Source of the DNA: Akkermansiaceae bacterium
Lineage (GTDB): Bacteria > Verrucomicrobiota > Verrucomicrobiia > Verrucomicrobiales > Akkermansiaceae
Length of the DNA stretch: 39,024 nt
Reading direction: 5' to 3'
NCBI GenBank assembly: GCA_947491475.1
Contig: CANLKN010000028.1
Span: forward strand, 1 to 39,024
The notes beneath the pieces are model-generated. The model was not told the origin of the DNA. It searched no databases and saw only the letters and a list, made by a program, of their open reading frames with translations. Shown piece by piece: positions 1,627 to 9,954 of the stretch. The translations under genes and the position numbers were made by a program. Numbering within the stretch: position 1 is the first letter of the stretch; each line of letters begins with the position of its first letter.

Positions 1627-2901
1627 CTATTTGATGATTTTGAAAAGTCTTCCGTCGCCGCCTTCAAACGGAAACTGGAAGCTGCTGCTTTTGCCGAGAT
1701 CCGCAAACGATCCGTCGCTGTGGGACACTTCCTTCAGGCTAACCGGCGCGTCGAACGCGATCGTCAGGGTTTGCACCTTGGCGTTTTCCTTGTTGACCAC
1801 CATCAGGTAGCGCGCTCCAGCGGCATCCTTGAACAGGCTGACAATGGCATTTCCGCCTTCCACCTTGGGAATCGATCCTCCCGACGGCAGGGGCTGGCAG
1901 GAACCGGTGATTTCGCCGACATGGTAAACCGCCTCGCACTCCAGCCCGAGCAACACTTTCGACAGCGCACCGATTTCCTGATTCAGTTTTTTCGCCACCT
2001 CATATTCCGGGGTGGGTGCCCCGTCATTGACAAGAAATGCGGGCCAGGCATTCCAGTAGGTGAAGTAGAAAATGCCCCGCGCACCATACGCAAGACAGGC
2101 CATCACCCTCAGCCGCGTGTCGTTGGCGTCCGGGTGGATGCACACCGCCCAGGTCTGATGATGCTTCGCCGCAATCGGGCGGAAGATCTCGAGGTTGTTG
2201 TAAAAATCCGGCCCAGGAGGCAGTCCCTTTCCCTTGTCGCTGCCCTCGTTCCATTCTTTGAACCCGTTGTAGTTGTCGTAACCGGAAAGGTCGCATTTCA
2301 CCGTGGACAAGAATTTCTCCACATACTCCTGATAAGTGGCGGTCTGCAACTGCTGGTGCACCGATGCGTAAGTGGGCAGCAAGTTGATGTAGGTGATATG
2401 CGTCGGATCTTTTTTCCGGAGGTATTCCACTGTTTCGGCGATGCGCGGGAACAGGCTGGCTCCCGGCTCGTCGTCCACGATGTAACCCAGCAGCGCCGGA
2501 TGCGAGGCATAGTCGGCGATTGCGGCATCGAGATACTGTCCGATGGGTCCCGGATACTTCTCCTTGTCCCGGACCATCTCCCAGATCCGAGGGTCGGCAA
2601 CCAGCGCCTTGATGCCGACCTTCTGGCACATGTCCAGGTATTTCAGGTTCTTCTCCTTGGTAAAATCCGTGAGCTTGGTGCCGTCATGATAGGGCATGGC
2701 CGCGTTGAATCCGCCGTCCTTGATGTTTTGATAGAGTAGTTCTTCGGTTCGGGCGGAGGGTGGACCGCACCAATAGCTGATGATCAGGTTGTTCTTCAGC
2801 CAGTCCTTCGTTGATGCCGGGGTCTCCTGTGCCTTTCCGTCTCCGCTCGCTGCGAAAACCAGGACGGTAGCCAGACAGATTCTGTGGATATGTTGATTCA
2901 T
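1627..2901 (-). CDS. secreted putative TIM-barrel glycoside hydrolase-like protein (424 aa)
   Basis: N-terminal signal-like MNQHIHRICLATVLVFAASGDGKAQ; barrel-like segments GYIVDDEPGASLFPRIAETVEYLRKKDP and GARGIFYFTYWNAWPAF; ATGA overlap with the upstream gene. Confidence 0.75.
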   Translation of the reverse strand: MNQHIHRICLATVLVFAASGDGKAQETPASTKDWLKNNLIISYWCGPPSARTEELLYQNIKDGGFNAAMPYHDGTKLTDFTKEKNLKYLDMCQKVGIKALVADPRIWEMVRDKEKYPGPIGQYLDAAIADYASHPALLGYIVDDEPGASLFPRIAETVEYLRKKDPTHITYINLLPTYASVHQQLQTATYQEYVEKFLSTVKCDLSGYDNYNGFKEWNEGSDKGKGLPPGPDFYNNLEIFRPIAAKHHQTWAVCIHPDANDTRLRVMACLAYGARGIFYFTYWNAWPAFLVNDGAPTPEYEVAKKLNQEIGALSKVLLGLECEAVYHVGEITGSCQPLPSGGSIPKVEGGNAIVSLFKDAAGARYLMVVNKENAKVQTLTIAFDAPVSLKEVSHSDGSFADLGKSSSFQFPFEGGDGRLFKIIK

Positions 2902-4871
2902 GGTTGGTTATTTATGTGAAGGACGACTACTTCGTTGCTGTGCAGGGTAATGGTGTTTCCTGAGATCCTGGCACCCTTAGACCACGGGCCGGGCACCTCG
3001 TTCACCATAGGTTGGTGGTTCTTCAGCGATACGGTGGCGGTCCTAATCTCATGGGTTGGATTGTAAAGACACACCGTGTGCTGTCCTTCGCCAATCTCAT
3101 TGATGGCATAGTAAATGCCGTCGCCGCCGACCTGGATCGGGAGGTGCTTCCGCACAGTTGCGCGCAGGTAACGTTGGACACAGTGCAGCAGCTCAAAGGG
3201 CGGGTCAGGCCGGTATTGCAGGCGTTTGATCATGTCGAAACCCGGGGCGGTCATGTCATCGGTGAGGCCATGATCGGCAAGGATCATGGTGACCTTGCCG
3301 GAGCCAAGGGCTTTTTCCATGATCACGGGATCATGTCCTTCGGTGGTCGCCACGACGTCCCAGCCATCATGGGTCTCCGGCTTGCGCACGGAATAAAACG
3401 CTTCGCGAACCTCCTCGTCGGTGGCGGGAATGAAGCTGTGGAAAGCCGGGTGTTTCTCCGCGCTGATGCGCAGTGCGAACCACTGTTCCGCGATTTGCTC
3501 CATGACTTTGGAACTGGCGACCAGATGTCCGCCTCCCTCGACATAGGCCCGCAGCCGTCCAAGGAAGTCGCTGTCGGGAGTGTCGTCAGACAGCAGCCAG
3601 ACAACCGGATAGTCCGCGAGGACGTCGCCGCCCGCATCACTTAGCAGAACATCCACCACATCGCCCTCCGGCGTGGGGGTGATGAACCCGCGCTCATCGC
3701 GATAGAATCCCGACCAGGTATAGCCGGGGTAGAACAGGTCGTAGGCCTGATCCATTCCGTGATCCGACGGCCCATACGGAAGGCAGTGCCACACCACGCG
3801 ATGCTCAAACGAATAGAGATGCCGGGGTGGTGTCCATCCGGCGTAATAATCCAGCATCAGCGCCAGCGGACGGAGCTGCCGGCCTCGCGGATGCGGGCTC
3901 CTCGCCCACTGGGTGAAGTCGCGGAGAGCTTCGCCCAGAGGGCTCAACTTGCGCACGCCGGCCTCGTCCAGATCATCGGTATAGAACCCGCCATCCAAGC
4001 CGACGACCGCCGCCTCGGCGAAGTAGTTGATCACCCATGTGGCCATGATCAACCCGATGGAATGCCCCTGGAATTTTCCGGCCTTCCAAACGCCCATCTC
4101 GCCATCCTCAATCGGCTGCACGACATCGGCGGAGTCGGTATAACAACGGTATCCCCAGCGGTCGAACACCGAGGTGATCATTTTATATTGCAGGCCATAC
4201 TGTCGGCAGGCACCGCGCAGAAACGAGGTGTAAACCTGCACGTTGAGAAGTGCCTGTCCGATCTCGGCCCCCACCATCCGGATTCCTATCTCATGGAAAT
4301 AGTGCGGGAAGGTGCAGCCCACGATCGTGCTGGAATTGCCATGCAATTTTTCCATGAGGTCGGCCAGGTAACCGACCAGCAGGTCATGACCTTCCCTGCG
4401 GGTCTTGGGCCGTTTGTCGGCATCCAGATATTGCATGACATCGCGCCCGAACAGGCCGTCCCATTCGCCCATATCCCAGCCCCAGAACAGGTCGCCGACC
4501 TGTTCTTCGATGTAGCGGTTTTCTTCGCTTGTCAGTTGGCAGGCTATCTTTGCATAACCCGGGCCGTCAGCCAGTTTATCGGACTTGAAAATCGCCCAGA
4601 AGTCGAAGGGTTTTCCGAGTTCCCGCAACTTTTTGATCTGCCCGTGCCAGCGTGCGATCAACTCACTTTCGCCCACTGGCGGAAAGGGCACGCCGGGTGT
4701 GATGTTAAGAATGAACCCGCCCAGATCCCACGAATCGCCCAGACCCAGGTTGGGAGCCATCAGGTGCATGGCATCCGCCAGATCGTAGTGGAGGAACTCC
4801 CGGTCGAAGTTGTGCCAGCTATACTGGGCGATCGTCATGAACCGCCCGAGCTTGATTGTCATTGGTTTCAT
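2898..4871 (-). CDS. putative glycoside hydrolase-like protein with possible beta-galactosidase trimerisation-like domain (657 aa), no evident signal peptide
   Basis: Long ORF with ATGA overlaps at both ends; motifs WGWDMGEWDGLFGRD, TDSADVVQPIEDGEMGVWKAGKFQGHSIGLIMATWVINYFAEAAVVGLDGG, LADYPVVWLLSDDTPDSDFLGRLRAYVEGGGHLVAS. Confidence 0.7.
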   Translation of the reverse strand: MKPMTIKLGRFMTIAQYSWHNFDREFLHYDLADAMHLMAPNLGLGDSWDLGGFILNITPGVPFPPVGESELIARWHGQIKKLRELGKPFDFWAIFKSDKLADGPGYAKIACQLTSEENRYIEEQVGDLFWGWDMGEWDGLFGRDVMQYLDADKRPKTRREGHDLLVGYLADLMEKLHGNSSTIVGCTFPHYFHEIGIRMVGAEIGQALLNVQVYTSFLRGACRQYGLQYKMITSVFDRWGYRCYTDSADVVQPIEDGEMGVWKAGKFQGHSIGLIMATWVINYFAEAAVVGLDGGFYTDDLDEAGVRKLSPLGEALRDFTQWARSPHPRGRQLRPLALMLDYYAGWTPPRHLYSFEHRVVWHCLPYGPSDHGMDQAYDLFYPGYTWSGFYRDERGFITPTPEGDVVDVLLSDAGGDVLADYPVVWLLSDDTPDSDFLGRLRAYVEGGGHLVASSKVMEQIAEQWFALRISAEKHPAFHSFIPATDEEVREAFYSVRKPETHDGWDVVATTEGHDPVIMEKALGSGKVTMILADHGLTDDMTAPGFDMIKRLQYRPDPPFELLHCVQRYLRATVRKHLPIQVGGDGIYYAINEIGEGQHTVCLYNPTHEIRTATVSLKNHQPMVNEVPGPWSKGARISGNTITLHSNEVVVLHINNQP

Positions 4872-7210
4872 TTTGTTACCTTCAAATATCGTTTGATTCC
4901 CATCACGTTGTTGCCCTTGATCGAAACCCCATACAGCCCGGGGAATGCATCCTCGGGCACACGGATTTTGAAAGCTTGGCCCGCAAGCAACTCCGGCGGC
5001 TTGGTGATGGTCAGTCCGGGGGCAATAACCTCCAGCTTGGTCCCGGGATTTTCTCCGGCGAGGGAGCAGGTTTTGACTTCCAACTCATCGCCGGGTTTGG
5101 CGGCGGGAAGCGCGTCGAAGCCCACGACGCTGTGGCCGGGCTTGGGAAGCACCGCGAGCATCCAGTTCGACATGCCGGGAATGACGAGCCTGCCGTCCTT
5201 CCTCTCCGGCTTGGCACTTGTCCATTCGAGCTTCTCGATGTCGCAGACGGCCATGTCTGGTGAAGCGATGCCGGATTGGGGAAGAGACAGATCGTAGGCG
5301 GCACGCTTCGCCGACAGCTTGCCGAAATCTCCCCACGACGAGGTTTGCTGCTCCGGCCTTGCCGCGACGAGCAGGTTGCAGGCGTCACTGCTGAAGTGCC
5401 GCGTGTGGATTTCCGGGTCGATGGAGGCAGGTTTCTCTAACACATTGCCCCAGACCAGCGTGTTATGCACCGGAGATTGCGCGCAAAACCAATTCGCTTC
5501 TTCGTCGGCAAAGTCACGCTCCCACTGCGAACGACCGCCGGGCAGGCCTGCCAGCGACGGCCACACAACACCGGCCGTGGTCAGGGCGAACGGACGGTAG
5601 GATTTCATTGCGATCCGCATCGGCGGGACGTCCTCGGCATAGAACTTGTGCTGGGTATAGGCTGTCGGGCAGTAGCGGCTGTAGAAATCCACTGGTCCCT
5701 CCGTCCAAAACATGGCGTCCGCCTTGACCGAATGGACCGCTTTTTCGACCTTGGAAAGAAGCTGCTTCATCCATTGATTGTAGTCATAAGGAGACGCATG
5801 ATTGTGTTCCGGATTGTAGCAGTCGCGGTAGGAAAACCCCAGCGAGTCCAGCCGAATGCCATCCGCGCCGGTCTCTTGCATCACCCGAGTCGCCACGTCC
5901 ACAAGATGGTCCTGCCATTCCACGCTGCCCGGGCACATCATATAGAAGCCCTGGTCGGTATAGGGGCCTGCCGTGCCGCCGTCGGCATTGATCACCTGCC
6001 ATCGCTGGGCCTTGCCCGCTTTCGCCAGCTCGCTTTGCAAAGGGACAATATATCCCTCGATATACAGGCAGGTCCGCAGGCCCAGCTTGCGCGCCGCCGC
6101 GATGCCCTCCCTCATCGCCTCGGCACCGCCCAGATCCTCGCGGATCACGTTGTCTCCATCCGTGTGCTTGTTATAGATCATCGACCCGCGGCACCAGAAG
6201 GCATACTCGGTCAGATCGACGGGAATCCTGATATTTGCCTGTGGAATATCGCGAAAGCTGTCCAGGAGCCATTGTCCGCCGTGGTCGGCAACGATCCCCG
6301 GCCCGGCCTTCTTGAAGTGGATGCCGTTCGCGCTGTCCAGTTCCCTGACCCACTGCGGCACGGGCGCGGGCTTGAACGCGATCTCCGACCAGTCGGCGAA
6401 GTCGCGCGCGGTGGCCTTCCAATCGCCACTGTAAACTTTCATCAGGGTCGTCGGCAGCGTGCGGGACTCGCCGGCTGCCAGCATGCGCGGCGGATAATAG
6501 CTCACTTTGACCACCGGCTTGTGTTGGATCAGCTTCTTGGCGAGCGACTCGGGATCCTTGATGACCAGGCCGAGCGCGGAGCCAGATGCCGGGTCAAACA
6601 GCGAATGCCACTGCATGGACCACTCGGTGGACAGCCCGTAGGTGCGGTCCGGGAATGCCCATGCGTCCATGATCAGTCCCGCCTGATTCAGCCATGTCTG
6701 CTTCATCGCCGCATCGGGCGCGCCAAGCTGCACGCCGTCGAGCACGGGAAACTCAACCAAAACGTCCTGCTCACCCGCGCCGACATTTCTCACCATCAGT
6801 TGCCATTCCGAGTCTCCAGAATCATTCCGCAGGACCACTTTCAAAACGAACTCAAAGCCCGACGCGGCGTAGTTCATGGTGAGCGATTGGCCTACGTCTT
6901 CGCTGAGGGCTTTGGCCGATACCAGTCGGATGCTGTCGGTCCCCAACTGGATGGCCGCCTCGTTGTTGCCTGATGGCAGCCACGGGCTTTTGAATCCAGA
7001 AGACACGCGAAACGGTATTCCCGGGCGCGGGGACGCCTTGAGAATATTGTCGCCCAGCTTGCGGTTTTCAATCTTCACCAACTCGCCGGAAGTGCCGTCG
7101 AATTCAATCCGGCAGGCATCGTTTTCCAGAATGGCAGGCTCTCCGGCTTGTGTGATAAACGGCGTGACCAGCAGGAACAGCGCCGCGAGGTTGTTCTTCA
7201 TGTGATTCAT
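4868..7210 (-). CDS. secreted putative glycoside hydrolase (alpha-galactosidase-like TIM barrel, DUF6259-like)
   Basis: Start assigned to MNHMKNNLAALFLLVTPFITQAGEP (ATG at 7210, signal peptide); motifs LRTCLYIEGYIV, ETGADGIRLDSLGFSYRDCYNPEHNHASPYDYNQWM, DAMFWTEGPVDFYSRYCPTAY. The ORF-track extension to 7438 is out of frame with the real upstream gene. Confidence 0.75.
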   Translation of the reverse strand: MNHMKNNLAALFLLVTPFITQAGEPAILENDACRIEFDGTSGELVKIENRKLGDNILKASPRPGIPFRVSSGFKSPWLPSGNNEAAIQLGTDSIRLVSAKALSEDVGQSLTMNYAASGFEFVLKVVLRNDSGDSEWQLMVRNVGAGEQDVLVEFPVLDGVQLGAPDAAMKQTWLNQAGLIMDAWAFPDRTYGLSTEWSMQWHSLFDPASGSALGLVIKDPESLAKKLIQHKPVVKVSYYPPRMLAAGESRTLPTTLMKVYSGDWKATARDFADWSEIAFKPAPVPQWVRELDSANGIHFKKAGPGIVADHGGQWLLDSFRDIPQANIRIPVDLTEYAFWCRGSMIYNKHTDGDNVIREDLGGAEAMREGIAAARKLGLRTCLYIEGYIVPLQSELAKAGKAQRWQVINADGGTAGPYTDQGFYMMCPGSVEWQDHLVDVATRVMQETGADGIRLDSLGFSYRDCYNPEHNHASPYDYNQWMKQLLSKVEKAVHSVKADAMFWTEGPVDFYSRYCPTAYTQHKFYAEDVPPMRIAMKSYRPFALTTAGVVWPSLAGLPGGRSQWERDFADEEANWFCAQSPVHNTLVWGNVLEKPASIDPEIHTRHFSSDACNLLVAARPEQQTSSWGDFGKLSAKRAAYDLSLPQSGIASPDMAVCDIEKLEWTSAKPERKDGRLVIPGMSNWMLAVLPKPGHSVVGFDALPAAKPGDELEVKTCSLAGENPGTKLEVIAPGLTITKPPELLAGQAFKIRVPEDAFPGLYGVSIKGNNVMGIKRYLKVTK

Positions 7211-7251: not shown

Positions 7252-9954
7252 CTAAAATCCGTTCGTTTTCCCGTCCGGCGGGCGGTTGTGGATGTTGACG
7301 TTGTCGAGGTGGAAAACCGCCGGGCCCTCCGCATTGCTGATAAACCCGAGCCAGTCGAGCGACTTCCAACCAGCTTGGTGCGGGAGTGCGGTGAAGCGGT
7401 GCGCGGGCTCGCCGGGCACCTGCACGGTCATGTCCCATGTGCCGGCGGACTGCTCCCCCAGCCCGGCCTTGATCTCAAAGTGGATCCATTGATCCTGCGG
7501 TAGCGGCAGGGTTTTGTCCGCCACGCGCAGGACGCCGCCGCTAATGACAAAGCTCGGCCCGGTTAGATACGGCGAGGCATTGTCACGCCATTCTTGCTGG
7601 AGTTCAACGCCGGGGCCGATCCGCAAATCGAACGAGCACTGCGACAGTCCTTCCCGGTGCCGCGGCGCAAACACCAGATGCGGATCAAAGCGGGAATTCA
7701 GTCCCGCTTGATCGGCAAACTTTAGGCTGCGCCGTCCGCTGGCCGCCGCTTCCTCCGTGGGTGCCAGCGTCCCAGCTTCGCCCCCATTGGAAATGGTGCA
7801 AGCGAACTAGGCCGTGTCGGATTCGAAACCCTCTTCGATGTCAAGCGGTGGCACGGGCGGCATGCGCGGAACGAGTGTGAAATCGGCGAATGATGGCTCG
7901 GCTGCCAGCTTCCGCCAGGCGGGGCTGCCCTGCACACCGGCTTTGGCATAATCAAACGGCACAAAACCAAGACCCAAGACAGGGGAATCGTCGGCGAGCT
8001 TGAAATCCCGCTGTGCCAGGTCGGCAAACCCCGGATCGGCCACCAACGAGTGGGCGTCCTGCCCGCCCGCCTGCCATTCACTGAAACTCTTTCTGTCAAA
8101 GTCAGCGCCCTGCCCATCCGCCCGCCAGTATAGGTTCCGGTCGAGCGTCATCTGTCCTTGATGCATTGTGCCTGAAACGAAAGGCCCGGACTGGCTGACC
8201 ATGATGTTCCGCTCCGCGCGAAACGATTCGTGCGGTTCCACCCGGGAACGCCGTAATACCCCGCCTTGAGAGAAGGCCAGAATATTGTTCTCCACCATAT
8301 TGTCCCGCCCGTAATGCTGGTAGAAACAGGAATAGAGGATGTCGTGGACCAGATTGTCCCGCACGGTTATCCCCGTGCTGCCCTCGTCCAGATAGATGCC
8401 GAAGACCGTAGCAGGGCTGCTGCGCAGGTGATGAATGTGATTGCCGCGAATCACCGTGCCCTCGCTCATGCCCAGCGTGTAAATGCCAGCCATGTCACCC
8501 AACACACCACTGCCTAGGTGGTGAATGTGATTGTATTCGATGCGGTTCCGCTTGGCCGCGCTCTCGCCATAACCCCAGCTCCAGCCCACCGAGATGCCGC
8601 TGTAAACGAAGTCCGAAATGTCATTGTGTGCGACGACGTTGTCGGAGCTGTTACCGATCCAGACGCCAATCGCTCCGTAGTGAATCCGGCCGCCGCCGCG
8701 GATGATGTTATGCTCCACCACGTTGTGGTTGGAAACGCGCCGGGACGGGGCAGAGTCGTTGTCCCAGCCATTCCCAATCCTCACCCCGCCCGCACCGAGA
8801 TCATGCAGGTAACATTGGCGCACGACGTTGCCGGAGCAGCCGCTGCGAAACCATATGGCATTCAGCCCGACATGTGCGATCTCGCAGTTCTCGAACGTGA
8901 TTTGCCTGGCGTCGTCCGCCATGACCACCGCCGTGATGCCATGTGCCGCCTGGGCATCCGAGTGGCCGCCGGGCGGCAGGAGGTATTGCCCGTGCAGAAA
9001 GCGCAGGCCTCGAAACGTCAGATTTTCCACCGGCTTCTCCGCCTCGCCGGTGATGTGGATGAACTGTTCGACACGCGGGGCGATGACTTCAGCGCGATTC
9101 ATATCTTCGTCCGGCAAGGGCCAGTAGAGCAAGGTGCCGGCGCGGTCCAGGAACCATTCACCCGGTGCGTCCAGAGCCTCGCGGAAGTTCTCCAGATGAT
9201 AACGGGATCCAGCGGTGAATTTGATGAACGGCAAGGTGTGGTCATCATCGGTAATGGGCGTCACGTAGAAGTCAGTGTTCTCCGCGTCGTAGATGCGCCC
9301 ACGATGGCGTGAGATTTCCCAAAAGTGATAGACGACGGCTGTGACATCTCCTATCCGGTCCGCCGGCACCTGGGCCAGCGGCGCGAGGATGTCAGGAAAC
9401 CCCTGAATCAGCCCATGGCTAAGATCGGCATCTTTTCCCGTTACCGGATCCCTGCCTTTTGCCAGTGCGCCCCGCAGGTAGCTCCAATCCTCGTTCGGCG
9501 TGCGCGCGCGGATCGCGCGGCGGCCATTGATCCAGAGTTGCTCGAAATACCACTCACCTGCGGCGACTTCTGGGAACGTGGCCTGCCAGAGGTGCTCCCC
9601 CTGTTTTTCCCAGCCGGTGATGCGGGTTCCTCCTGAAAACACCGGCTTCGCGCCAGGGGCCGCCTCGTAGGTCACGCCGGAATCCTCCGGCGTGAATTCC
9701 ACCGTGCCACGCAAGGGATACGTCCCATCCGCAATGATCACCCGCGCGTCTATCCCGGGTTGCTGCTGCCGCTGTTTTCGGATGGCATCGCGCGCGGCTC
9801 CAAGAGTGGCCAGCGGTTTCTCCACCGTGCCGGGATTCGAGTCGCTGCCGTCCACCGCAAGGAAGAGGATGGCTGCTTGGTCGTCCGCTAGGGCGGGCAG
9901 ATCCATGCACGCCGAAACGAGAAATAGGATAAGCGCGAAAAGTGTTTCCTTCAT
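7252..9954 (-). pseudogene. right-handed parallel beta-helix protein, GH141-like, interrupted by an in-frame TAG at 7807-7809
   Basis: ORF 9954..7807 (MKETLFALILFLVSACMDLPALADDQAAILFLAVDGSDSNPGTVEKPLATLGAARDAIRKQ...FSGGTRITGWEKQ...LWINGRRAIRARTPN; many beta-helix N/V/G repeats). After the TAG the same frame continues FACTISNGGEAGTLAPTEEAAASGRRSLKFADQAGLNSRFDPHLVFAPRHREGLSQ... to the stop at 7252. Start 9954 and internal ORF start 7674 differ by 2280 nt (760 codons), confirming the shared frame. Truncated product may still be expressed. Confidence 0.8.

Follow-up and report, generated by a model that had tools for sequence, protein, structure and literature searches.

Glycosidases of family GH141, including BT_1002 (PDB 5MQP), Xyn141E and the endo-fucanases Wf141, are built on a parallel beta-helix with a GH141 insertion domain, and in BT1002 two residues, D523 and D564, have been reported as essential (PMC12786026). 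In stop-codon readthrough genes, of the viral gag-pol type as well as in mammals, the frame continues beyond the stop into an extension whose domain is conserved. Among nonsense-truncated paralogues and young bacterial pseudogenes, one copy out of several has a single premature stop while the remainder of its frame is intact and alignable. The literature on readthrough and on GH141 supplied this background and nothing about the gene studied here.

This gene lies in the window, by which we mean the whole stretch of 39,024 nucleotides that was analysed, from the 3.89-Mb draft genome (182 contigs) of an environmental bacterium. Our analyses favour, with a probability of about 0.86, a nonsense substitution in a hinge between two domains, which would leave a short, probably working enzyme devoid of its tail domain.

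Architecture of the interrupted gene

Translation of 7252-9954 on the minus strand yielded 715 codons, a TAG at 7807-7809, 184 further open codons and a second stop at 7252-7254. An earlier note, made from the letters alone, had claimed that an in-frame TAG splits a beta-helix gene, with the catalytic beta-helix 5' and a compact beta domain 3' of the stop; the translation bears out the split, the peptide it quoted (EEGFESDTA) is exact, and the layout is confirmed. The features are as follows.

7810..9954, minus strand: GH141-like secreted right-handed beta-helix glycosidase, 715 codons up to the TAG (Pfam, PDB 5MQP, aligned Asp residues)
7807..7809, minus strand: in-frame TAG within the variable hinge that joins the beta-helix to the tail domain (sense codons in both intact paralogues)
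7255..7806, minus strand: C-terminal domain severed by the TAG, 184 codons, predicted concanavalin/LamG-like beta-sandwich (paralogue homology, AlphaFold, Foldseek)
7252..7254, minus strand: original terminus of the full-length frame, a TAG (translation)
7409..7516, minus strand: 108-nt tract inside the tail, identical to paralogue C150 and gene-conversion-like (20,000 column shuffles)

The first 715 residues matched the Pfam families Beta_helix (1.4e-19) and GH141_M (7e-9, above the cut-off) and, among PDB sequences, 5MQP (BT_1002, E = 4.9e-52). Asp487 and Asp523 of the window protein, both well before the TAG, align to D523 and D564 of BT1002 on the assumption that the PDB chain numbering is offset by five from the published one, an offset that fits both residues. 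Judged by its sequence, the gene is a member of GH141, with the beta-helix, the GH141 insertion domain and two Asp aligned to catalytic positions. The catalytic part of the 715-residue truncated product appears whole, and this product is probably still an active enzyme.

The tail had no significant family match among Pfam and PDB sequences and no match in a phage collection. Its AlphaFold model (pLDDT 82, pTM 0.81) is nearly all-beta, and the best Foldseek matches were lectins, polysaccharide lyases, CBM4 and a domain of the sialidase BT_1020, at TM-scores of 0.4-0.6, which therefore indicate the broad fold alone; from these matches, a carbohydrate-binding role can be proposed.

Downstream of the gene, on the same strand, 1627-7210 encodes a DUF6259/GH66-like protein followed by two proteins without Pfam match; these genes overlap by a few bases and have an operon-like appearance, and the ORF listed at 856 aa probably starts near 7210, not at 7438. 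Between 13741 and 36927 lie a propeller histidine kinase, PATR/PEP-CTERM proteins, a GH106 alpha-L-rhamnosidase and a GH2-type enzyme, surroundings that look like a polysaccharide-utilisation region.

Paralogues and relatives across the stop codon

The same genome holds two close intact paralogues, on contigs C95 and C150, with uninterrupted frames of 890 and 895 codons. Their identity to the window gene is 76% (C95) and 74% (C150) in the helix part, and 66% and 76%, respectively, in the tail, so that the homologous C-terminal domain claimed to continue in frame is indeed there. In both, this domain starts directly after a shared hinge (EEGFE...SNGGEA), and the position aligned to the TAG at 7807-7809 is a sense codon. 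Since two intact paralogues read straight through, the frame after the TAG belongs to the gene. The chance of a 184-codon open stretch after a stop (about 0.003, raw, from composition at 60.5% GC) is not needed for this argument, because homology to the paralogue tails decides. The homologue alignment across the TAG that the earlier note had proposed gave the same picture: no tail-bearing homologue has a stop at the equivalent position, and the hinge around it varies in sequence and length across the family. Another copy in this genome, on contig C152, which also matches the tail domain in a shorter frame, is cut by the contig end, helix and tail being fused.

Most homologues have helix and tail in a single frame of roughly 880-990 codons. 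Natural short homologues of 670-744 codons (L003, L007, L009, L010, L011, L016 and L022) end in or just before the hinge, at the equivalents of window residues 673-713 or thereabouts, ahead of the position of the TAG. Because the hinge is variable and several homologues naturally end there, loss of the tail is probably tolerated, and the domain would accordingly be dispensable. Regarding the possibility, raised in the earlier note, that homologues normally end at the equivalent of the TAG, this does not hold as a rule, most of them being fused, although some do end before the domain.

The tail domain of C95, searched against 290 genomes of the order, gave 97 matches; for 84 of these the frame spans 815 codons or more. 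Eleven matches in shorter frames were inspected: seven run into a contig end and retain the fusion of helix and tail, two are too fragmentary for a verdict, and one (G264) has a shortened helix joined to the tail. G105 (L123:248-2972) has a single TAA inside the beta-helix, after which the helix end and the tail continue in the same frame. Three further interrupted relatives (G021, G023 and G038) carry TGA or TAA, and such differing stops are what random nonsense changes or errors would produce. In a further relative (G035, locus L025), about 150 internal beta-helix residues, around 369-517 of the window protein, appear to be missing in frame, through a deletion or an assembly collapse.

No separate intact gene for the tail domain occurred among the 97 matches in 290 genomes, the two fragments being too short to judge, and the case raised in the earlier note, homologues with the 3' domain as a gene of its own, was thus not encountered. 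Across these relatives, the domain appears to be normally fused to the helix and sometimes absent. That the tail is made separately, as a 140-aa protein from the GTG at 7674, we regard as highly improbable. A mechanical ORF is present, yet the listed start at 7674, as given in the earlier note, is merely the first GTG past the TAG, and the true extent of the tail is 184 codons; this GTG lies about 45 residues into the conserved domain, so that a protein begun there would lack the initial strands of the predicted fold; it has no plausible ribosome-binding site by eye and no signal peptide, and none of the relatives surveyed carries the tail as an intact gene by itself. A separate tail gene was rejected on the frames of at least 815 codons and on the shorter frames checked, which are contig ends or interrupted copies with the helix end.

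Origin and consequences of the in-frame TAG

The tail shows no sign of decay. It contains no frameshift, the window copy has no private departure at 21 strongly conserved tail columns, and in comparison with the paralogues the tail has a dN/dS of 0.17-0.24, the N-terminal (helix) part one of 0.20-0.26; these values are averages over the whole period after the copies diverged and give no age for the TAG. Taken with the absence of departures at the 21 columns, the constraint on the tail indicates that, until recently, this domain was evolving as a translated protein sequence. An undecayed tail would fit a stop that is young, polymorphic, erroneous or masked by recombination between paralogues, and is not proof of continuing translation.

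Recombination may have left traces. Positions 7409-7516 are identical over 108 nt to C150 (locus L066), the tails being 77% identical overall, and none of 20,000 column shuffles reached 108 (maximum 56). C150 itself has a dS of only 0.36 to C95 in the helix, against 1.16 in the tail. The identical tract and the mosaic C150 suggest gene conversion or sequence exchange between paralogues, which may itself have refreshed the tail of the window gene.

The main rival of a nonsense mutation is an artefact, in which a wrong consensus base, or the mixing of a minor strain or of paralogues in the assembly, produced the TAG, the real gene being intact at about 900 codons. The perfect preservation of the tail, under the same constraint as the rest of the gene, would be expected if so, and in a draft of 182 contigs the 108-nt tract common to paralogues could confuse assembly; these points, zero decay and the draft state, were counted against the nonsense reading, zero decay also fitting low-level use of the tail. 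Against an artefact, the TAG is a lone substitution with no adjacent frameshift, and errors in a short-read consensus seldom take this form. Moreover, some 290 nt separate the identical tract from the TAG, and at the hinge the sequence departs from both paralogues, so the TAG is not a plain copy from either of them. We consider an artefact unlikely.

Far less probable still is programmed amber readthrough, whereby leaky termination at the hinge would give, from one gene, a mixture of the short enzyme and a longer one with the sugar-binding-like domain. As readthrough would have it, the stop falls exactly in the hinge between the domains, and beyond it the frame stays open and conserved, but the stop is unique to the window copy, an inter-domain stop being found in none of the other frames examined among the 97 tail matches. 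The RNA 3' of the TAG is not unusually structured (fold z = -0.80 against shuffles, 38 of 200 folding as well), on which ground a downstream stimulatory RNA element was rejected. The termination machinery also speaks against readthrough: RF1 is present in the genome, above the curated cut-off; a search for an amber suppressor, as proposed in the earlier note, found 40 tRNA genes and none with a CUA anticodon, in a genome 96.6% complete in which a missed tRNA is possible; and TAG is an ordinary stop, terminating 8 of the 74 long ORFs counted in a 150-kb sample of the genome, the window gene and intact paralogue C150 among them. On the same three grounds TAG recoding or amber suppression was rejected, and the note's judgement that global recoding is unlikely is upheld.

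Past the TAG of C150 the same frame is open for 739 codons (L066:4262-6481), and this is a separate neighbouring gene with its own ATG and a signal-like N-terminus; a shared frame alone therefore proves nothing.

Among the three explanations offered at the outset, nonsense mutation is thus the best supported, amber readthrough is without support, and a base-call error keeps a small share of the probability. Under the nonsense reading, the gene would be one of three close paralogues for a secreted GH141-like beta-helix glycosidase with a C-terminal beta-sandwich, and a substitution in the window copy would have created the TAG in a short, poorly conserved inter-domain hinge. RF1 would end translation there, and the product would have 715 residues, a signal peptide and both catalytic aspartates, and no sugar-binding-like domain. 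Such a product would resemble the naturally short homologues and would probably still be catalytic. The tail, presumably now untranslated, would be undecayed either because the change is young or a strain polymorphism, or because recombination has masked it. An annotation should mark the 715-aa protein as the truncated form of a two-domain family member and should not treat the 140-aa ORF as a gene of its own. The locus would then offer a small natural case of accessory-domain loss within an expanded polysaccharide-degrading gene family.

Comparison with known systems

The window gene shares with the described GH141 glycosidases the parallel beta-helix and the insertion domain of that family, and with BT1002 the Asp at both positions aligned to the essential residues; in contrast, overall similarity to BT1002 is only modest (E = 5e-52), and its full-length relatives bear an extra C-terminal beta-sandwich to which 5MQP, of 624 residues, has no sequence match. 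With readthrough genes it shares an in-frame extension bearing a conserved domain, and it differs from them in that its stop is not conserved, no suppressor tRNA was found and the downstream structure is unremarkable. Like nonsense-truncated paralogues and young bacterial pseudogenes, it has one premature stop in one of several copies, followed by a frame that is intact and alignable. Unlike that of such pseudogenes, its stop lies in the hinge between two domains and leaves a complete catalytic domain that is, from its sequence, probably functional.
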